Assembly: GCF_036373705.1 (NCBI RefSeq)
Contig: NC_089866.1
Location: 4,101,001-4,165,000, forward strand
Length of the DNA stretch: 64,000 nt
Reading direction: 5' to 3'
Origin: Amia ocellicauda
Taxonomy: Eukaryota > Chordata > Actinopteri > Amiiformes > Amiidae
Made by a program: the position numbers and the translations under genes
Notes under the pieces: model-generated
Seen by the model: only the letters and a program-made list of their open reading frames with translations
Told to the model about the DNA's origin: nothing
Database searches by the model: none
Shown: one piece after another, positions 19,001 to 45,700 of the stretch
Numbering within the stretch: position 1 is the stretch's first letter
How the letters are laid out: each line of letters opens with the position of its first letter

Positions 19001-21419
19001 TGGCGAGACTTGTGTTAAGTGATGGTAAACGGGAGCAAAGGTCTCTACTGCCCTCTGCCGGTGTCAGCGCAGCACTGCAATCGCCTCTCCGGTCTCAGTT
19101 TATAAACACTTTGGCCAATGTGGCGACCAAGCCGGTGGCAGGACAATGGTGTGGCTGTGGAGATGGCTGGAGAGGGCAGAGAAGTGGTGGCATCTGGTTT
19201 AATTCACTGCCATCAGAACACCAGACGACACACTCGCACTGGGGTGAGTTTCCACAGCTTCTGGAGTGGGCTGTTCGCCGGCTGTGGAACACTAGGCCCA
19301 TTGTGTGACTGCGGTGCCCAGTGGACGCTCTCCACTTTGTTTCCTGAACTGTGATCAGAAACAGAGCGACATCTCTATTCACATGAACTGCACAGGGCTG
19401 ATGTGTGGGCTCACAATTACTTGCAGCCCAGTTCTCTGCTTGGGTTTGGGATCATGTTTTGCGTTGTTGTTGTTATTTAAGATATAGTTTTTCTATAGCC
19501 CTTCCTTGTCTTCACATTGGGCTACAGCATTTATATTGTGTTTCTTAAATAAATGTAACGTTTACAGTGAGGGAAAAAAGTATTTGATCCCCTGCTGATT
19601 TTGTACGTTTGCCCACTGACAAAGAAATGATCAGTCTATAATTTTAATGGTAGGTGTATTTTAACAGTGAGAGACAGAATAACAGCAAAAAAATCCAGAA
19701 AAACGCATTTCAAAAAAGTTATAAATTGATTTGCATGTTAATGAGGGAAATAAGTATTTGACCCCTTCGACTTAGTACTTGGTGGCAAAACCCTTGTTGG
19801 CAATCACAGAGGTCAGACGTTTCTTGTAGTTGGCCACCAGGTTTGCACACATCTCAGGAGGGATTTTGTCCCACTCCTCTTTGCAGATCCTCTCCAAGTC
19901 ATTAAGGTTTCGAGGCTGACGTTTGGCAACTCGAACCTTCAGCTCCCTCCACAGATTTTCTATGGGATTAAGGTCTGGAGACTGGCTAGGCCACTCCAGG
20001 ACCTTAATGTGCTTCTTCTTGAGCCACTCCTTTGTTGCCTTGGCTGTGTGTTTTGGGTCATTGTCATGCTGGAAAACCCATCCACGACCCATTTTCAATG
20101 CCCTGGCTGAGGGAAGGAGGTTCTCACCTAAGATTTGACGGTACATGGCCCCGTCCATCGTCCCTTTGATGCGGTGCAGTTGTCCTGTCCCCTTAGCAGA
20201 AAAACACCCCCAAAGCATAATGTTTCCACCTCCATGTTTGACGGTGGGGATGGTGTTCTTGGGGTCATTCCTCCTCCTCCAAACACGGCGAGTTGAGTTG
20301 ATGCCAAAGAGCTTGATTTTGGTCTCATCTGACCACAACACTTTCACCCAGTTCTCCTCTGAATCATTCAGATGTTCATTGGCAAACTTCAGACGGGCCT
20401 GTACATGTGCTTTCTTGAGCAGGGGGACCTTGCGGGCGCTGCAGGATTTCAGTCCTTCACGGCGTAGTGTGTTACCAATTGTTTTCTTGGTGACTATGGT
20501 CCCAGCTGCCTTGAGATCATTAACAAGATCCTCCCGTGTAGTTCTGGGCTGATTCCTCACCGTTCTCATGATCATTGAAACTCCGCGAGGTGAGATCTTG
20601 CATGGAGCCCCAGACCGAGGGAGACTGACAGTTATTTTGTGTTTCTTCCATTTGCGAATAATCGCACCAACTGTTGTCACCTTCTCACCAAGCTGCTTGG
20701 CGATGGGCTTGTAGCCCATTCCAGCCTTGTGTAGGTCTACAATCTTGTCCCTGACATCCTTGGACAGCTCTTTGGTCTTGGCCATGGTGGAGAGTTTGGA
20801 ATCTGATTGATTGATTGCTTCTGTGGCCAGGTGTCTTTTATACAGGTAACGAGCTGAGATTAGGAGAGTCCCTTTAAGAGAGTGCTCCTAATCTCAGCTC
20901 GTTACCTGTATAAAAGACACCTGGGAGCCAGAAATCTTGCTGATTGACAGGGGATCAAATACTTATTTCCCTCATTAACATGCAAATCAATTTATAACTT
21001 TTTTGAAATGCGTTTTTCTGGATTTTTTTGTTGTTATTCTGTCTCTCACTGTTAAAATACACCTACCATTAAAATTATAGACTGATCATTTCTTTGTCAG
21101 TGGGCAAACATACAAAATCAGCAGGGGATCAAATACTTTTTTCCCTCACTGTAGATGTATCATGAGTACAGGCAGCTTTTTTATATAAATGACGAGACTG
21201 AGAGAGAGGCTTGCACTGTGATTGTGACCGCTAGATCTAAAGTATAAGAGCAGCTGACTCTGGACAGAAGGACTGTGACCGACCTTGCAGGGCGTCGTGC
21301 ATCTCCTCTGTGAACGCCTCCAGGGACTTTCCTTTGTGCCGGTGGCGGGCATCCTTCCCCCGGGCAGAGGTGCCCTCTGGTTTGCCATGCTGCGGCTGCT
21401 GCTTCTTCTTTTTGCCCAT
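16033..21419 (-). CDS. tsr3: TSR3, 18S rRNA aminocarboxypropyltransferase
   Basis: TSR3 transfers the 3-amino-3-carboxypropyl group of S-adenosylmethionine to the hypermodified pseudouridine of 18S rRNA, a late cytoplasmic step of small-subunit maturation. Exons on the minus strand in transcript order: 21419-21284, 18458-18248, 17716-17523, 17385-17218, 16585-16531 and 16246-16033. All phases agree, giving 325 residues. The basic start MGKKKKQQ is followed by the family core: [17 protein letters not shown], the segment ending [61 protein letters not shown] and LRKFKWG. Next comes a DPFDVDSG box on the 55-base exon, then a very acidic Glu/Asp/Ser tail ending [11 protein letters not shown]. Human TSR3 ends similarly (VWKGIKKRQRD). 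Intron 1 holds a full Tc1 element in the same orientation. Translation from 21419 is chosen because it is the first ATG in the open exon. Confidence 0.95.
17074..17191. repeat. Foldback (inverted repeat) in tsr3 intron 4
   Basis: Two 48-base arms, 17074-17121 and 17144-17191, are reverse complements at 44 of 48 positions, separated by a 22-base loop. On the tsr3 (-) strand the hairpin begins 27 bases after the 5' splice site at 17217. It may be a small MITE, or simply a transcribed hairpin. No target-site duplication was recognised. Confidence 0.75.
19772..20785 (-). CDS. Tc1 transposase, intact, 337 residues
   Basis: The protein binds the element's terminal repeats and catalyses cut-and-paste transposition into TA. 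The N-terminal paired-like helix-turn-helix region spans about residues 1-115 and includes a [17 protein letters not shown] helix-turn-helix. The catalytic DDE triad is complete: D153 in LWSDETK, D241 in QHDNDPKH and E276 in [11 protein letters not shown], with 34 residues between the last two. The length is normal for the family, and there is no frameshift or stop. A TATAAAAG at 20842-20835 lies about 50 bases upstream of the ATG on the same strand. I see no obvious inactivating lesion; activity is not shown by sequence alone. Confidence 0.95.
20827..20924. repeat. Perfect 40-base palindrome at the transposase 5' end
   Basis: Arms 20827-20866 and 20885-20924 are exact reverse complements separated by 18 bases. 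Each arm contains TATAAAAG, so one TATA-like box faces the transposase (20842-20835) and the mirror copy faces the right end. The palindrome lies between the transposase ATG and the right inverted repeat. Confidence 0.9.
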
Positions 21420-26300: not shown

Positions 26301-27058
26301 CTGGTAGATCCTGGTATCGTGAGGAGGCCGTGTGAAAGGTTTGGGTTAGTTTCTTTCAGCAGGAATTGACACTGAAGTCATTCCCACTAAAATCGAACTG
26401 CCTAAATCCCTGTTCAGATCTTTGGCAGATCTTCACAATTCAAACATGTAAGACTGAATAATGGGGTGTTTGCTTTGTAGCACGAGCATTACAATGTTTC
26501 ACAACGTCAACGGTAACCTCTCATTTGTCCCCCTGTTGATTCAGTCTTAATGGGGGTGTGGCGTTCTTACGCAGGCTGGTGTCATTCTGACAATCACTTG
26601 CTGGCAGCCGTGTGTCCAGCGATCGTATTAACTGCAGGCGCCTGCCGTTTGTGTCTCATGCAGGAGGTCCGGAAACAGACGGAGGAGGTGGAGAGGCTGA
26701 AGGCGCTGCTGTCTCAGCACGGCATACAGCACAACACACAGCCAGGTGAGGCGGCCCTTACGGACACTCTCCGCTCAGTGAATATCTGCTGCTTGTAGAC
26801 ATGGCCACTGCCTCAAGTTCCTTACAGTGTAAAGGCTCTGCGGCTCCTTCCCCAGGAAGCTTCGCCAGGCGTTCTTAGGCCTGGTCTGAGAATTGTGTTG
26901 TGAGAGGCACTGCTGATTGTGCACACGTTTATGTGTTTATTCCCTCATGGACAGGAGCCACAGAGCCGCCTAACAGCCATCAGCCCACAACCACCACACC
27001 GGCATCCAAAGAGAGGCACCTGCGTGGCGACACAGGGCTGCTAAGCGACGTGCTCTGA
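23377..27058 (+). CDS. gnptg: GNPTG, gamma subunit of GlcNAc-1-phosphotransferase
   Basis: GNPTG is the soluble Golgi subunit that helps the GNPTAB-encoded alpha/beta subunits recognise lysosomal enzymes and start mannose-6-phosphate tagging. Exons: 23377-23455, 23593-23647, 23823-23881, 23988-24042, 24213-24296, 24392-24485, 24704-24818, 25008-25090, 25351-25476, 26664-26745, 26955-27058. Phases close to give 311 residues. A hydrophobic signal peptide ([15 protein letters not shown]) is followed by [12 protein letters not shown]. The MRH (mannose-6-phosphate receptor homology) domain follows, with [36 protein letters not shown], a cysteine-rich core and [21 protein letters not shown]-glycosylation sequons occur at HNIT and NNTF. 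A DMAP-interaction-like and coiled-coil C-terminus ends [11 protein letters not shown]. The third exon uses the acceptor at 23821-23822, because other nearby AGs break the frame. The segment is shorter than human around VNNPFLP. Confidence 0.95.
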
Positions 27059-28331
27059 GGGAGACGAGAGGAGCGCGGGAGAGAGGCGCCCACAGCCCCG
27101 GGAATGAACAGAGACTGCTGCAGAAAGACATATTTTGTAGTGTGGGAGGAGGTCTGTCCTTAAACAAACTTCCAGGGTCACTGCTGTTCACATGATCAGC
27201 ATTAAGAGTTAAAATATGGTTGGTTTGCAGGGCCAAATGAAAATTGCACATTCACGATTGTGCAGCAGAACGAGACTGGGGTCTTCCTGTTTATGTTCCA
27301 GAGATAACGGTCAGTGCTCAGCGCAGGTGCCAGGGACAGGAAGACAGGCAGTGTAAAGTAGCTGCTCTGTGCTGGTTGTTGACATTTAAATCAGTGGCAT
27401 TACAACATTTCTGCTGTGCAGAAAAACAAAACAAAAAATGGTAACCCTTTTGTATAGTCGGCAAACTTTAATGTCTTAAAAGTAATGCTATGCTGTGATT
27501 TTGGATTAACATGGAACGTCTGACCTGTTAAATTAAAAAATCTTGTAAATGCTGTGCAGGTCTTTTAAGTAAACCCGTGCAAAACAGTTTATTTTCACCC
27601 CAAAGTAGAGAATATAATGTGTTTAATCCTGCGCCTCATTTGGACAAATCCCTGCTAAACCACCGCCTTCTCCGATTATTAAAAGTAATTAAAAGTGTGT
27701 GACTCGCTCTGTGATCCAACTCGGTCACCGCAGACGTGATGTTACAGCTCAGTTCTCGCACACGGTGGCAGAATTCATCTGTCTCCCCCCAACTGTGTCC
27801 TTATCCCCCACTCGTCTGATCACGGAGACCCAAGCATTGTTAGAAGATCACTGCAAACTTTCTTGAATGGTGCTTTTTAAAGCGTTATCTACCATGCTGG
27901 GACAGAGTCGGAAGTGTCCCCATCTCATGCGCCTGGACGTGACCCGACGGCACAGTTTTTCAGAAAGGAAATCTGTTCAGAGTCTCGTGTCTATAATTAC
28001 AATGAGAAAGCCGACACTGCACTAGCGGAGGGTGGGAGTAAGCCAGCTCTAATATTATCCTGTGAGGCACACAGCAAGGGACTTCCCCTAGCATGATGGA
28101 ATCAATGGTATTCGACACATTTAACCCAGAACTCAGTTTAAAGATGAAACAATTACAGAAGGGGGTTGTGATTCACCAGTACAGACTAACACCACATGCC
28201 ACAGAGGGACGGTCACAGAACGGCTGTCCCAGCTCCCTCCCGTCCGTCGCCATCAAAGCAAACTAGAGCCGCAGTTCAGGATTTGGAAACGTAGATCAGA
28301 GACATCTAGTCACTACCCAACGCAGCAAGCA
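27059..28331. other. Convergent 3' regions of gnptg and the ATF gene
   Basis: No coding sequence is seen. An ATTAAA at 27532-27537 on the + strand is a possible gnptg poly(A) signal. AATAAA on the minus strand at 27593-27588 is a possible signal for the ATF gene. The two predicted ends would overlap by a short distance. Confidence 0.5.
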
Positions 28332-29090
28332 TCAGTTATCTCCCGTCTTGCGCTCTACAGCAGAGTCACAGCTACCAGTGCCACCCTGGTCCGCCCCCGC
28401 GCTCCGGATCTCGGTCAGCAGGCCTCTCAGACACCGGGTCTCGGCCGCCAGCGAGGCCAGTCTCTCCCGCAGCGCCTTGTTCCTGCAGAGCAGCTCGCCC
28501 AGCTCCCCTTCCAGCACTGCTCTCTTGGTCCTCTGCTTCTGGCGATACCGGGTCGCTGCGGTTTTGTTCTGCTCCTTCTTCTTGTGCTTGCGGTTAGGGT
28601 TGGCAGAGGAGGGAGCGGCAGTGGCCTCCGTCACTCTACACGGAGAGCCGCCCCCACGGAGGATTTTGGGCGGGCAGTGAGCGGGATGTTTCAGCGGTAC
28701 CTGGCCCCGGTCATCACACTCTGAACTCTCGGCGTCGGAGGGAGCTGCCGGCCCGGTGCTGCTCAACAAAGAATCGTAGGCCAGTTTCACCACCCTCACG
28801 GGTGCGTACGCCAGGAGCCTGCTGGGCTGAGCGGAGGCCAGGGCATACGGGCCGTTGGCTCTATGCACCGGAGAGTCCGGGGAGCGGGGAGGCGTGTAGG
28901 GAGCCACCTGATCGCTGGCCCAGTCCCGCCACGCTGGCGACCCTCCGTCTGCAGGAGGAGCGGCTGAGATTTCGGCCTGGACTTTCACACCCCTCCGCAC
29001 CCCCCGCGGGAGGTCCTCGGAGGGCATCGGCCCATCTTCGATGAGGCTATCCAGGAGGTAGACGTCCATCCTCTCGCCCATCCAGTCCAT
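28332..29090 (-). CDS. ATF4/ATF5-family bZIP transcription factor, 252 residues
   Basis: The protein should bind C/EBP-ATF or CRE-type DNA as a dimer in the integrated stress response. It opens MDWMGERMDVYLLDSL, matching the DWM-E-MD box near the N-terminal third of ATF4 and ATF5. The middle is Pro/Ser-rich with an acidic SDAESSECDD patch. The C-terminus has a basic region KKKEQNKTAATRYRQKQR, very close to ATF4, then a leucine zipper with several substitutions. The coding part is on one exon whose acceptor CAG is at 29104-29102, just 11 bases before the ATG. A codon-free 5' exon probably lies near 30311. The protein is shorter than ATF4 (about 350) and ATF5 (about 280). I cannot decide between the two from sequence alone; synteny suggests a third member (see findings). 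Confidence 0.88.
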   Translation of the reverse strand: MDWMGERMDVYLLDSLIEDGPMPSEDLPRGVRRGVKVQAEISAAPPADGGSPAWRDWASDQVAPYTPPRSPDSPVHRANGPYALASAQPSRLLAYAPVRVVKLAYDSLLSSTGPAAPSDAESSECDDRGQVPLKHPAHCPPKILRGGGSPCRVTEATAAPSSANPNRKHKKKEQNKTAATRYRQKQRTKRAVLEGELGELLCRNKALRERLASLAAETRCLRGLLTEIRSAGADQGGTGSCDSAVERKTGDN

Positions 29091-30130
29091 CTCAGAGATG
29101 CCTGCAAAATTAAACGCAAGTTCTCTCTACCCTGGTACCCTCTACTAACCCACCCACCCTGCAAGATCTCAAAAAACATCTCAGAAGTTCACACCCTCAT
29201 TCAGTTTACAATGGAATACATCCTCACCTAAGGCAGATATTTAAATGAAACCCTTAGGTGCCTACTGGGAAGCACTGTTAGAGGAGTTGGGCCAGTTGCC
29301 GCAGGAGTATAAAAGTAATGAGGCGCCTGTATTGAAATACCATGAATGAGAACAGGTGGTGGATGCAACATGGTAACCTGGAAAAGTGAAGTATAGAGAC
29401 CAGTAGCCAAGACCTACTTTGTGAGCCAGACTGGAGGAGACTGTGAGAAGCTGACGCTGCCCCCCCCTCTGGCTCGCAGTGTCCACCGGGACCAGTCAGG
29501 GCACCCAGCAGCATCTCGGGCTCAGCGGTCAGTGAAACAAGTTCTGGATACAGGCTCTCTGGCCACAGCGTCTCTGTCCACTCCATGGGCGCGGGTCAGG
29601 GCGGCGAAGGCTCCGGCTGGGACTGACCCACGGGGGTAAGAGGTCTTCTCCGGCAAGGCACGAGTCACAAGGTGGGCGGAGGTGCCATCGTGAAGCCTGC
29701 GGAACACAGCGGGACATGCACACAGACAAGACAGGAGACCGGAGAGGACCGGCCTCCGTCAGGAAATGCTGAGCAGCTGTACAGAATAGGCTGTCACTAT
29801 CAGGAGGTTTAGATGTGTTGTAATATGATTAATTATTCACTAAATTCAGTCCAAAACTAAAATTAAAGGACTCTAGAATTGAAATGTAGTCTTAAATCTA
29901 AAGTAAAGGAGGTTTTAGCTTAGTTTTTAATACAGCTCATCCAAAGAGGCCAGCAAAGGAAATGTGCTAAAGCTGCGTTGCAATGTGCTGTGCAATCATT
30001 ACCCTGCCGGCGCCGGCACCCCCACCCCCCCCACAGCATGCCTGTCTTTTTCCTGCACTCATGGCAAGGAAACATCAGTAACATACAATGAAAATCTAAT
30101 TCCGTTTAGAGAAAAATCTATTCTTGAAAA

Positions 30131-30131
30131 A

Positions 30132-30165
<34 letters not shown>
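30131..30165. repeat. (CT)n(CA)n microsatellite
   Basis: A CT run passes directly into a CA run of about 12 units, inside the intron of the ATF gene. Confidence 0.95.
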
Positions 30166-30310
30166 CACCCTTCTGCAGCTTCTTTAAATACATATCTTTT
30201 GATAAATGCCTCTATATGTACAATACTAAACTTTCACTTCCCTCACACAACATGCCCACAAAATCTCCCAGCAGTGGAGATTCCCCGCGCAGGATTCCCA
30301 GGATACTCAC

Positions 30311-30420
30311 TCCATGTTGGGGTGTGGGTGCTGGACGGTCTAGGCGAGGGAGTCCATGGCAGAGTGCAGCCGCCGTGCCCGACCCAAGGACACTGACAGC
30401 GCGCTCCAGCCGACTCGGCA
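30311..30420 (-). other. Probable 5' exon of the ATF gene with short upstream ORFs
   Basis: A GTGAGT donor on the minus strand at 30310-30305 ends a candidate 5' exon. It contains ATG-GAC-TCC-CTC-GCC-TAG at 30357-30340 and a second ATG at 30315-30313. When spliced to the acceptor before 29101, that second frame reads ATG-GAG-CAT-CTC-TGA and stops one base before the main ATG. Short upstream ORFs are characteristic of ATF4 and ATF5. The exon start is a guess and the splice is a model without transcript support. Confidence 0.5.
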
Positions 30421-30442
30421 CACTCTCCCAGCCCTGCGGCGG

Positions 30443-30532
30443 ATTGGCCAGCAGACCACCAATCACAGAACCGCAGCCCACTGCCTCTGCCAATCAGAGG
30501 AGCCTCAAACTGCAGCACGGGGATGTGATTGG
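30443..30532 (-). promoter_or_regulatory. Cluster of four CCAAT boxes, likely ATF gene promoter
   Basis: CCAAT occurs on the + strand at 30459-30463 and 30490-30494 and on the - strand at 30447-30443 and 30532-30528, within 90 bases of GC-rich DNA. It lies just upstream of the candidate first exon. NF-Y clusters of this kind mark TATA-less stress-gene promoters. No TATA box was seen. Confidence 0.5.
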
Positions 30533-30899
30533 GCTCAGATTACAGGATCTGTAAGCAATCCACAGCAGGATTGTTTTTCTCCCCCTTTTATGCTTTCCAG
30601 CCACTTCCCACTTAACTCATTAAACCGGAGACTACAAAACTAAAGATTGACAGATTGCACCAAAGAACAGCAACATGATGCAATTTAAGGCAATTCTGGG
30701 CCATCCAGGCTGGTGTTTTCTGCATCACAGGCTGTACAAACTGGAAACAAAGGGATGAAGAAGATTGGAGTGGTTTATATCCCTGTTAAGCAATGAGCTG
30801 TTAGTTTTTAATTATTGGACTAGTTTAATTTAATCTGTAATGTTGTGAACCGAGTAGTTTGAAGCAAGAAACTTAAAATAAACACTCACACACGTTTAA

Positions 30900-33800
30900 G
30901 ATCAAAAATTATTTTAATTCCCATAATGATAATAAAAATAATTCCATGAATTCTGTAAACCATTGCATAAATGCTATAGTGTAAAAATTTTAACAAGTGT
31001 TAACAATTTTAAACCATACACTACAAGTAAATGATTATGCATTATAAATAATGCCTTCTACTTTTTAAGAAAAAAAGCCATTCCGGTCTTCAATCTCTTC
31101 TATAGACACTCAGCTACACCATGTAAAGGCTTCCATAAATTAAACATATGAAAAATCCCATAATATGCAATTAAGGTCTTATGTTGACAACACGTACACA
31201 AAATTAATATACTGACAGTAATATTTCTAGGAATATTTAAACACTAATTAGGATATGAGCTATTCTATATATCAATACATAACAAAATAAGGGATATGTT
31301 TCAATCTCTATAATAAAAGGTCTACCCCAATTCAATAATGCAAGTAAATCTATGAAATGCAGCTTAAAGTCTGTAAGAACTTAACACCTTTCTTTATTCT
31401 ACAGTTATTACTGTAAAACCCTGAGAAAATAAACTGAATTCTTTTTCCCCCTCTTCATATCGTTAGGCTGATAAATACGCAAACTTGAAAAGCTGCATTC
31501 ACATTAAATTCTTATTTCATACTTTTGAGTTTGTATTTTATAGCCATTTCACAAAACTAATGCTACATCTAAATAATTTAAACGTTCTGCTTTTCAGAGT
31601 GGGCTATATTCAATTTGTGAATGGTACATTCAAGGTTGGGTTTAAATATAGAAAAAACTAGAATGTAAAAAAAAAACATCAGAAAAAACTAATTATAGGG
31701 AACAGTGGTTCCAGTAATTTTAACATCATTTAACATTTTTGTTATCCTTTAAGAAGAGAATTCATATTTAATGCTTTGATAAACTTTATATTCTAAAATT
31801 CTTGGAAATTCTAGTCAAAACAGAGCTTTAGGTTTCCATACAGGATTGCATAAAAGTCCTCAAATTTAGTAACAATAATACCAACAAAAAAACAAAAAAA
31901 ATTCATGTGAATGCAAGATCATTCACACCCAAGACTTTATACTTTTCAAATACAGTTCATTTAAAAGCTGCAAACAGTGAGATCTCCATCGGGTGTGTTT
32001 CTCTAGTGACAGTTGCCTGCTTTATAGATCTGAAGTTCTCTCGGGGGGTTTGCATGCATAAAACTGAAGAAATACAAATAAATAAGCCCTGGAGTAAGTG
32101 CTGTGCTGTAATCCTAGGGTGGCAGATGTAGGCAGGACGGGGCACGGTGGGACACAGAGGCATTGTGGGAACGGTTCGGGGAATAAGTGGTTCGCACTGA
32201 CTCAGCATAAGCACCTAGTTACGATACTGGCCAGGATACCACAGTGAACACCAATACAGTCCAATACCAGCTCAACCAGAGGGGCATCACAGGAGACTGG
32301 GTTTCCTGTGACACCAGCTTTGATCTCCGGCAAGAATCGCTTAATACCATTCCAGGCCCAGACCACAACGACCGACCTCGGCACCGTTCTCCAGCTCCAC
32401 CCATGGTAGAGCTTAACTACAGTGGACTGCCACGCTCAACAGTTCATAGTCGTGTAAGGTGTGCAGGACCACCGAGCTAGCCTCCCCCGGGGTAAGTAAA
32501 GGCAGGAGGGGAGTTGTAAGTCCTAAGACCCCCAACAGAAACCGCTGGGCTGCCTTGTCGCATGAGGCACTGAGAAAACACGCTGAATCACTAGCAGCCC
32601 TTATGAAAGGGGTTGGGGGGAAAAACACAGTTGGCACATGATACGGGTGCATCTGTGCCTGGATGAGGGGACAAGCCACCGTCCACCACCAACATCTACA
32701 GTGCTGTCCAGGTCACCTCTGGCCAGGCCACAGCAGCACAAACGTGGCATCTTCATACCGAAGGCAAGCCCTCAAGACGATGTAGAGGTACAGTGCAAAA
32801 GCAAAAGAAAAACCAGACATTTCCTGATCACACCTGATCTTGAAATGAAAGAATCAAACAGACCTTTCGGTTGAAACTGCAGTTTCTTTCGGAATCGTGA
32901 GAATGAACTCCCTTAATTTTTTAACCAAGAAATATGAATGACGTGAATGACTCAAGGGAAACAGACTTTTCTGGCTCCACTGTAAAGCATCTCTGCTCTC
33001 GCACAGCCCCTTCACTGGCATCTCTTGCCCGTATCCTGCAAGAGACTGGAACCAAACGTTGAATGTTTCCTGAGAAAAGAACAAAAACTTTGCCACGAAA
33101 CACCAAGCAAGCTACCAGCAAGCAAACTGAAAGGCTAGGAGCTGGAGCGCTCTCTTTAGCAAGGAGAAGCTAGAGGGAACAGTCACCCAGGGAGAGCTCC
33201 CCTCTCCTCCTCCACAGACATCAGACAAGGTTATGAATCGTAGACCCGTCTTCACTTGTTTTTACTACCCTTGCCACTGGTCCGAGGGTTTCCTCCCCAG
33301 GGACCACCCTGCCCCCACAGCTGCAGTGTGAAAATCCGGTTCATTCATGTTCGCCCTGCGCCCTTTCAACACAAACGGGAGATCCAAACCGCGTCTGAGC
33401 GGCAACGTTTACGCAGGTCTATCCGGGAGCGCGCGGTGTCGTTCAGGACACGGGGCTTTTTTGTTTGAGGTGGAAACTGCAGCTGCCTCTGTTGCTGCGA
33501 CTCCGGCCCACCTGCATTGCCCAGAGAAGGGTCGGTCTAAATCTCTTCCCAGATCATAACTGGTCAAAGGAGCCACTCTAGTGGCATTTCTGAAAATACA
33601 GCCACAAAGATACAAGCACCATTTTGGGGGGGGGAGAACAAATAAAATAAAAATACATGAATAACTCAAATGGATTGGTAACATTTCTTGCTAGTTTATG
33701 TACTTCTGGTTGTAGAATTAAATATAAAATCTATATATTGTGAATGGCGATCATAATAAACCAGTCAAGTGAAAACTAAAGAAAGCACCTTACAGTCCAA

Positions 33801-42700: not shown

Positions 42701-45700
42701 ATAGTTAGACGTCGGAGACGAAACATTGGACGTGGTGGACTCTGAACATAAGCTACCATTAGTAAAGCATTTGGGCCTGCTGATGGGTCCAACTGGGGAC
42801 AAAGAACTGTTGCTTCCTGAGCCTGACGTTACAGTCGGACTACTAGTGCATGAAACCTGAAGGAGAAAAGTACAGAGGATCTTAAGTAGGTTTCAAAGCC
42901 AGAGAAATGTGCTCGCTGTTGTGTGCGTCTCAGTTAACCGACAGCTGGACAACTGGCAGCAACTTACTTCATGCGACCTGGACTTAAATGGTATTTAACT
43001 GGACTGGCAAAACAATACAGTAGTCATAAAATAAAGAAAAATAGAATGCATAAAATAAAGCTATATCTTATTTGGTAGAACAACAGAAATATTGAATTGA
43101 GTTATACACCTAATCCCCTTAGATTTATTTGTTGACTAGTGTATGATGGAACAGAAAAAAAAATAATAATAATAAAAATAAACATTGGCCTTACTCAGCC
43201 TCTCCCCTACTTTATGTCAGTATGCAAATAAATGGATAATCACACAAATAAAAAAACATAAAATGAAGAAATTACTTGCTCACGTGAGGTCAGGGGAGGG
43301 AATTTAAAGACTTCGAAATACTCTTCACCTTGAGGATAGTGCAATTAGTTATAAATTAGTCATCAGATTCTCAGTTGATCATGCTGGTTTGTGAATTTAC
43401 TGAACCCTGGCACTGCAAAGAACCCGCCATGCAGCGCTGAACTAACACTGGTGAAACTGTACCCGTTAAAAGCATCCGGCCTACCATTTGTCAAGTCTGT
43501 TTGGTGTGAAGACAAGAAAACAAAATCCTTAGAACTACACAGAGAGAGGAAAAGAAAAGGAGGCGTCTACGTACATTCACCATTTGACCATTGTTGTTGG
43601 CAGTACTGCCTATAGAGTTTGCGTTGCCACACCACTCACTGACCGGACACTCAGAATACTGCTGGGAGCCCGGCTTGGACTGGGACCCAGAATGCATCAC
43701 AGTAAGCAACGAACTCATGGGCTCATCGGAGGAAGATATTCCTGCAACAAACGACACAGGGATTAGACTTGCCGACTCATCAAAACAAAACAACTGCAAA
43801 AAATTTGAGTGCCACAAAGCTCCGACATTACACAGGGAAATCTATGCAAATGGTGCCGTTTCAACAAACTGATGATATACACTCACCTAAAGGATTATTA
43901 TGAACACCATACTAATACTGTGTTTGACCCCCTTTTGCCTTCAGAACTGCCTTAATTCTACGTGGCATTGATTCAACAAGGTGCTGAAAGCATTCTTTAG
44001 AAATGTTGGCCCATATTGATAGGATAGCATCTTGCAGTTGATGGAGATTTGTGGGATGCACATCCAGGGCACGAAGCTCCCGTTCCACCACATCCCAAAG
44101 ATGCTCTATTGGGTTGAGATCTGGTGACTGTGGGGGCCAGTTTAGTACAGTGAACTCATTGTCATGTTCAAGAAACCAATTTGAAATGATTCGACCTTTG
44201 TGACATGGTGCATTATCCTGCTGGAAGTAGCCATCAGAGGATGGGTACATGGTGGTCATAAAGGGATGGACATGGTCAGAAACAATGCTCAGGTAGGCCG
44301 TGGCATTTAAACGATGCCCAATTGGCACTAAGGGGCCTAAAGTGTGCCAAGAAAACATCCCCCACACCATTACACCACCACCACCAGCCTGCACAGTGGT
44401 AACAAGGCATGATGGATCCATGTTCTCATTCTGTTTACGCCAAATTCTGACTCTACCATCTGAATGTGTCAACAGAAATCGAGACTCATCAGACCAGGCA
44501 ACATTTTTCCAGTCTTCAACTGTCCAATTTTGGTGAGCTTGTGCAAATTGTAGCCTCTTTTTCCTATTTGTAGTGGAGATGAGTGGTACCCGGTGGGGTC
44601 TTCTGCTGTTGTAGCCCATCCGCCTCAAGGTTGTACGTGTTGTGGCTTCACAAATGCTTTGCTGCATACCTCGGTTGTAACGAGTGGTTATTTCAGTCAA
44701 AGTTGCTCTTCTATCAGCTTGAATCAGTCGGCCCATTCTCCTCTGACCTCTAGCATCAACAAGGCATTTTCGCCCACAGGACTGCCGCATACTGGATGTT
44801 TTTCCCTTTTCACACCATTCTTTGTAAACCCTAGAAATGGTTGTGCGTGAAAATCCCAGTAACTGAGCAGATTGTGAAATACTCAGACCGGCCCGTCTGG
44901 CACCAACAACCATGCCACGCTCAAAATTGCTTAAATCACCTTTCTTTCCCATTCAGACATTCAGTTTGGAGTTCAGGAGATTGTCTTGACCAGGACCACA
45001 CCCCTAAATGCATTGAAGCAACTGCCATGTGATTGGTTGGTTAGATAATTGCATTAATGAGAAATTGAACAGGTGTTCCTAATAATCCTTTAGGTGAGTG
45101 TACACTTTCCAGCAGGTGATTGACAGGAGTTAATACAGTGACCTCCTTTACAGTGATACGCAACTCAGCTAAGTAAAGTTTCCATCTATTTTAACACTTC
45201 CTGTTCACTACACATCCTAGAGGGGTTTTCACATCAGATAATGACATCTGTATCCATCTTGACAATTAACTGCCAGACCTTTCTTGTTTTTCAGACTTTA
45301 AATAGCATTTTACAACAAGGCTGTGGTTAACGTTTGAACAAACTGGAAGAACAAGGAAAGAACTAGTGCCAAGAAGATTTTATTTCCAAAAAGCCCCCCA
45401 GATCTCACGACCCCTGCCAGAGAGTAAAGACTTACTTTCCACGTGTGCAAACGCACAGAACGGCCCCCGTGGACAGTAGCCCGTTTGACGCATGTCATTG
45501 CATTTTGTGGATTTGTAAATCTGAAAAACACAACAGAACAAGACACTTACTTAGGTGAGCTGGATTAAAAGGTGTACATGGTTAGATATCCTTAATACTA
45601 CAATACTACTACTGATCGGAGGAACGGACATGTCAGGCCCGGTCAGCTTTTCTCAGAAGGCAAGCAACCCCAGTCTCTTCTGATAAACAATAACAAAAAA

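Follow-up and report, generated by a model that had tools for sequence, protein, structure and literature searches.

A third ATF4/ATF5-type bZIP gene between gnptg and unkl in Amia ocellicauda, probably kept from the vertebrate genome duplications

Introduction

ATF4 and ATF5 are among the main transcriptional outputs of the mammalian integrated stress response. A further bZIP gene of their type lies between gnptg and unkl in the fish Amia ocellicauda, and its presence there raises the question of whether it is an old member of the family or a later copy of one of the other two. To our knowledge, human 16p13.3 has no bZIP gene between gnptg and unkl. The locus was analysed in a stretch of 64,000 nucleotides (contig NC_089866.1, positions 4,101,001 to 4,165,000 of the forward strand), referred to below as the window, and by searches of the fish's own genome, whose chromosomes are designated by C and a number; the window lies on C23. 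In the open-licence literature, no paper was found that ties ATF4 and ATF5 to genome duplication, ohnologs or lamprey bZIP phylogeny, and nothing was found that treats any three of the paralogues atf4a, atf4b, atf5a and atf5b jointly.

Structure and neighbourhood of the gene

The gene is intact, is located on the minus strand at 28332-30357 of the window and encodes a bZIP protein of 312 amino acids in three exons, whose structure was deduced from splice signals (Table 1). The joined coding sequence (CDS) has 312 codons, with the start at 29586 and the stop at 28332-28334, and exon 3 makes up most of a 264-codon open frame. The preliminary description had reported a bZIP gene with an ATF4-like basic region and a DWM box between gnptg and unkl; with its intact frame of 312 amino acids this gene proved to be real, and the range given for it fits as well, the stop at 28332 being the lower end and the inferred end of exon 1 at 30311 falling inside. 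Since the gene retains its introns, an origin as a retrocopy was discarded. Besides the candidate polyadenylation signal, ATTAAA occurs downstream of the stop at 27472 and 27627. No tandem repeats were found in window positions 27000-31500.

Table 1 Features of the bZIP gene between gnptg and unkl, in window positions
Feature	Position	Strand	Remarks
CARE-like motif TGATGCAAT	30676-30684	+	Upstream of exon 1, some 320 bases ahead of the uORF1 start codon
Exon 1, 3' end (inferred)	30311-30357	-	uORF1 at 30357-30340, then uORF2 up to its fifth base
Intron 1	29697-30310	-	In the 5' leader, GTGAGT...CAG; splits uORF2 after its ATG and two bases; placed from splice signals alone
Exon 2	29418-29696	-	Remaining uORF2, main ATG (A at 29586), CDS codons 1-56 plus one base
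Exon-2 part of uORF2	29522-29696	-	The 65-nt CDS overlap counts the stop codon
Intron 2	29102-29417	-	GT...AG, phase 1, immediately ahead of the DWM box
Exon 3	29101-28332	-	DWM box right after the splice acceptor, middle region, bZIP domain, TGA stop at 28332-28334
bZIP region, residues 226-291	28398-28595	-	ATF4-identical basic core EQNKTAATRYRQK; by eye, five heptad leucines
Candidate polyadenylation signal AATAAA	27588-27593	-	Motif only; 3' UTR of about 740 nt

The flanks contain TSR3 domains and two UNK/UNKL zinc fingers above the Pfam cut-off, as well as a GNPTG-type PRKCSH match of 25.7 bits, just below the cut-off of 27. Ten stretches were compared with Pfam; one baiap3 stretch fell just under the cut-off, one baiap3 and one unkl stretch matched nothing, and reading by eye contributed to the naming of baiap3 and gnptg. 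The order of the flanking genes is presumably that of human 16p13.3. The window also holds two frames of Tc1/mariner-type transposases on the minus strand, one at 19775-20887 with Sleeping Beauty HTH, Tc3-type HTH and DDE_3 matches in Pfam, and a second, recognised by eye, at 43915-44952.

Membership of the ATF4/ATF5 family

Pfam bZIP_1 was matched by the protein with 29.9 bits against a cut-off of 27.6, and bZIP_2 was also above its cut-off. The best match among PDB structures was ATF-4 (1ci6; E 1.4e-11), followed by C/EBP beta with E 0.26. When the fish's own genome was searched with the protein, all seven candidates were scored and three matches with E up to 0.1 were obtained, namely the two exons of the gene itself and atf4 on C6 (E 2.8e-10). 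The DWM box reads MDWMGERMDV in this gene, MDWMAEKIDL in atf4 and TDWMTEKVDF in atf5 of the same genome, and a phase-1 splice site directly ahead of the box is common to the three. Outside the bZIP region and the DWM box almost nothing could be aligned to the fish's atf4, the next local match, which spans the box, having E 1.0. By its sequence, the gene is a member of the ATF4/ATF5 bZIP family.

The fish's other members were located by an own-genome bZIP search, in which 150 of 381 candidates were scored and at least 27 matches were obtained; one of these was the gene in the window and nine regions were read. This placed atf4 at C6:40260426 and atf5 at C1:53754301, both of which we name from the bZIP sequences. 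A stretch taken as human ATF5 matched the C1 exon at E 5e-15 in a search of 200 kb. It was observed that an intron within the basic region of atf5 (AAHR|YRQ) splits its bZIP domain, which is probably why atf5 was missed in the own-genome search with the protein. That same search, in which atf5 itself went unlisted, revealed no fourth ATF4-type gene on C5. A scan of splice phases for exon 1 of atf4 found one candidate donor, and a search for exon 2 of atf5 did not locate that exon, so the uORFs of these genes could be compared with those of the gene between gnptg and unkl only in part. About 2 kb downstream of atf4 lies a frame of 343 codons that includes a HIT domain (L009:6789-7817, plus strand); we know of no HIT-domain neighbour of human ATF4.

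With ATF4 the gene shares the basic core, the five heptad leucines, the phase-1 intron before the DWM box and, by eye, a D-S-L segment following that box. It differs from ATF4 in the following: the protein is shorter (312 against 444 amino acids in the fish's atf4), the identity in the zipper is low (16 of 38 residues after position 24, compared with the fish's atf4), and the two genes lie on different chromosomes of the paralogon. With ATF5 it shares the DWM box, the phase-1 intron and a related bZIP region, but it lacks the ATF5-type zipper end and, in comparison with the fish's own atf5, the extra intron in the basic region. DSGxxS/DSGxxxS is the motif of the beta-TrCP degron; no match to it was found in the 312 amino acids of the protein, unlike the fish's atf4, which has DSGVGS. 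There are also ten bZIP sites at which this gene departs from a residue common to atf4, atf5 and the solved ATF-4. Because of the missing degron motif and the ten divergent sites, both the stability of the protein and its choice of dimer partner may be different.

Distance to ATF4 and ATF5

Over 62 bZIP residues, the gene shares 32 with atf4 and 28 with atf5 of its own genome, and 34 with the solved ATF-4. The other pairs share 36 (atf4 and atf5), 47 (atf4 and the solved ATF-4) and 35 residues (atf5 and the solved ATF-4). Hence, the gene is about as distant from atf4 as atf5 is.

Trees were calculated under LG+G4 from these 62 residues with four or five sequences, the set of five including one stretch taken as human ATF5. 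With five sequences, the gene stood outside ATF4 and ATF5 in the best of 15 trees (RELL 0.71). Nesting it inside ATF4 cost 1.8 units of lnL and was not rejected in this small tree (AU 0.19). The two trees that nest it with ATF5 had delta lnL of 8.1 and 7.7, with AU of 0.0225 and 0.086, respectively. The four-sequence tree gave a result of the same kind (RELL 0.79; alternatives AU 0.15-0.16). The tree thus favours an old third lineage, with which it agrees without deciding against a copy within ATF4.

Upstream open reading frames and proposed control of translation

In the inferred mRNA, two upstream open reading frames (uORFs) precede the CDS. The first, uORF1, encodes MDSLA in five codons plus a stop, and its start lies 157 nt ahead of the CDS. 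The second, uORF2, has 59 codons, begins at 30315 on the minus strand, 115 nt ahead of the CDS, and runs 65 nt into the CDS out of frame. The spacing between the two is only 24 nt, the context of the uORF2 start is strong (AACATGG), and a uORF of seven codons in another frame lies inside uORF2. In the fish's own atf4, a frame already open at the acceptor of exon 2 extends 74 nt into the CDS before it stops.

In two reviews, ATF4 is described with a uORF1 of three codons and an overlapping uORF2 of 59 codons (PMC9208314; PMC3434475), the overlap with the CDS being 83 nt (PMC3434475), and a third describes an overlapping out-of-frame uORF2 for ATF5 too (PMC9971878). The overlaps of 65 nt in this gene, 74 nt in the fish's atf4 and 83 nt as reported for ATF4 are equal modulo three, which gives the upstream frame one and the same register towards the CDS in all three. 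A short uORF1 followed by an overlapping out-of-frame uORF2 of 59 codons is the arrangement of ATF4. The layout in the leader of this gene is new here, and as it is of the ATF4 type, translation of the gene is likely to be controlled by stress.

The following course of events would be expected. In unstressed cells, ribosomes would read uORF1, reinitiate at the overlapping uORF2 and bypass the CDS. Once eIF2 has been phosphorylated, reinitiation would be slowed, which would let a part of the ribosomes skip uORF2 and translate the CDS instead. The protein would then dimerise through its zipper, probably with partners of the C/EBP type, and the dimer would be predicted to bind composite C/EBP-ATF sites at its putative targets. 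The C/EBP-ATF response element is known as CARE, and a motif resembling its consensus is located upstream of exon 1 (Table 1). As the window as a whole contains 11 matches of this kind, this one included, its position is possibly due to chance and little weight is given to it.

Chromosomal linkage and origin

The chromosomes that carry the ATF4-family genes were compared by means of other gene families. For GRIN2, all 18 candidates were scored, and eight exon matches were assigned to four genes, at 6.47 Mb on C23, 31.69 Mb on C5, 47.49 Mb on C6 and 63.54 Mb on C1; one of the C5 matches has an internal stop codon, which was taken as an overrun past the end of the exon, and the identity of the query was checked by its PDB match. 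For the T-type calcium channel, with a checked query and all 31 candidates scored, six exon matches were obtained, corresponding to three genes at 13.04 Mb on C23, 39.61 Mb on C6 and 33.70 Mb on C5. The UNK-type zinc finger was matched twice (four of four candidates scored), in the window on C23 and at 34.60 Mb on C5. Exon pairs of the synaptogyrin type were found on C6 (40.635 Mb, 375 kb from atf4) and on C23 (13.09 Mb), these being the two genes read among 21 MARVEL matches; we take them to be SYNGR1-like and SYNGR3-like. As a separate observation, weak MARVEL matches on C5, C3 and C7 might be further synaptogyrins. The four GRIN2 genes, one on each of C1, C5, C6 and C23, form a clean four-way 2R set that could be used for other families as well.

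Against this background, the ATF4-family genes are distributed with atf4 on C6, atf5 on C1 and the gene between gnptg and unkl on C23. It follows from the GRIN2, T-type channel, UNK and synaptogyrin markers that each of the three occupies a different member of a single four-chromosome 2R paralogon; the neighbours of atf5 on C1 were read by eye only and do not enter this linkage evidence. On C6 the order is cacna1i-like exons (39.61 Mb), atf4 (40.26 Mb) and the syngr1-like gene (40.64 Mb), so the placement of ATF4 beside CACNA1I, which the preliminary description had drawn from human 22q13, is found in this fish as well. The 22q-type position, with CACNA1I and SYNGR1, is therefore taken by atf4, and the gene on C23 is by position not the ATF4 orthologue. 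The proximity of CACNA1H to BAIAP3, also invoked there, does not hold in this genome: the window lies at 4.1 Mb of C23, and the cacna1h-like (13.04 Mb) and syngr3-like (13.09 Mb) genes are about 9 Mb off. A parallel placement of SYNGR1, SYNGR3 and SYNGR4 had likewise been suggested, and it was borne out for the first two, on C6 and C23, but not for SYNGR4, of which none was seen on C1 among the 21 MARVEL matches. That each marker is present as a single copy per chromosome also argues against a further, teleost duplication having taken place here, although subsequent losses could conceal it.

The proposal that the gene is the 16p-type copy of a whole-genome duplication is supported by its location on C23, the 16p-type chromosome of the 2R paralogon. 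We are fairly confident that this third ATF4/ATF5 member is a 16p-type 2R ohnolog that was kept in this fish, is not known from the human interval, and most likely acts as a transcription factor of the integrated stress response. The gene was probably lost in mammals. Points that weigh against this reading are the tree nested in ATF4 that was not rejected, the distance of about 9 Mb to cacna1h and syngr3 on C23, the scarcity of alignable sequence beyond the bZIP region and DWM box, the missing degron motif and, for the control by uORFs, their close spacing, the additional seven-codon uORF and the frequency of similar arrangements in shuffled leaders.

Alternative explanations

A different origin would be a segmental duplicate of atf4 with its introns, which moved to C23 in the lineage of this fish and then evolved fast. 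It would explain why atf4 was the sole other match of the protein in the own genome, in a search that missed atf5, why ten sites are common with the fish's atf4 and not atf5 against six in the reverse sense, and why trees nested in ATF4 were not rejected. Against it, only 32 of 62 bZIP residues are common to the gene and the fish's atf4, whereas the fish's atf4 and the solved ATF-4 share 47, and the gene sits exactly on the 16p-type chromosome of the paralogon, in what is presumably the gene order of human 16p13.3; we regard this origin as improbable. The gene could also be already known in other fishes as an ATF4-like gene or as atf5b, in which case it would not be new even if its origin had been misread there. 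Zebrafish atf5a and atf5b are only 40% identical and are assigned to the teleost duplication in the table of a review (PMC11612004), and an identity of that size would also suit an older split; the protein nonetheless fits ATF5 worse than ATF4 in the tree (delta lnL 7.7-8.1 against 1.8), and we regard a prior record of this kind as unlikely, if worth bearing in mind. Most improbable is a decaying or silent gene whose frames were kept by chance and which is not expressed. Its long branch and the ten sites at which it alone differs would agree with decay, but a frame of 312 codons is preserved over two canonical introns, and the ATF4-identical basic core, the five heptad leucines, the DWM box and the polyadenylation signal are all intact.

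A further alternative leaves the third gene in place and questions its control: the uORFs could be coincidental and translation independent of stress. The frequency of such arrangements was estimated from shuffled leaders, with 3000 shuffles for each length. A short uORF and, behind it, an overlapping one of 45 or more codons occurred in 1.0% of the leaders of 200 nt, 5.5% of those of 290 nt and 24% of those of 400 nt; with no length set on the overlapping uORF, the values were 2.7%, 14% and 46%, respectively. Given these frequencies, the arrangement is suggestive and not proof. Coincidence is favoured by the value for 400 nt, by the short spacing between the uORFs and by the peptide of uORF2, which by eye has no evident likeness to the upstream frame of atf4. 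It is opposed by the low values at 200-290 nt, the strong start context, the length of 59 codons that is reported for ATF4 too, and the single frame relative to the CDS that the three overlaps keep. We consider coincidence rather unlikely, yet it carries some weight, and stress-controlled translation remains the preferred reading of the leader.

Significance

In a broader view, vertebrates would have begun with at least three stress-translated factors of the ATF4 type, of which the third, the 16p-type one, would persist in some fishes as a subfamily apart, with a zipper specificity of its own and lacking the beta-TrCP degron, while it would have been lost towards mammals and not been described as such. 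On balance we lean towards this view, by a modest degree. A third branch would alter how the stress response of fishes is read, namely the assignment of orthologues, and it would help to show that uORF-based control is older than the vertebrate genome duplications. The gene between gnptg and unkl also offers a natural comparison for the change of zipper and degron after duplication.
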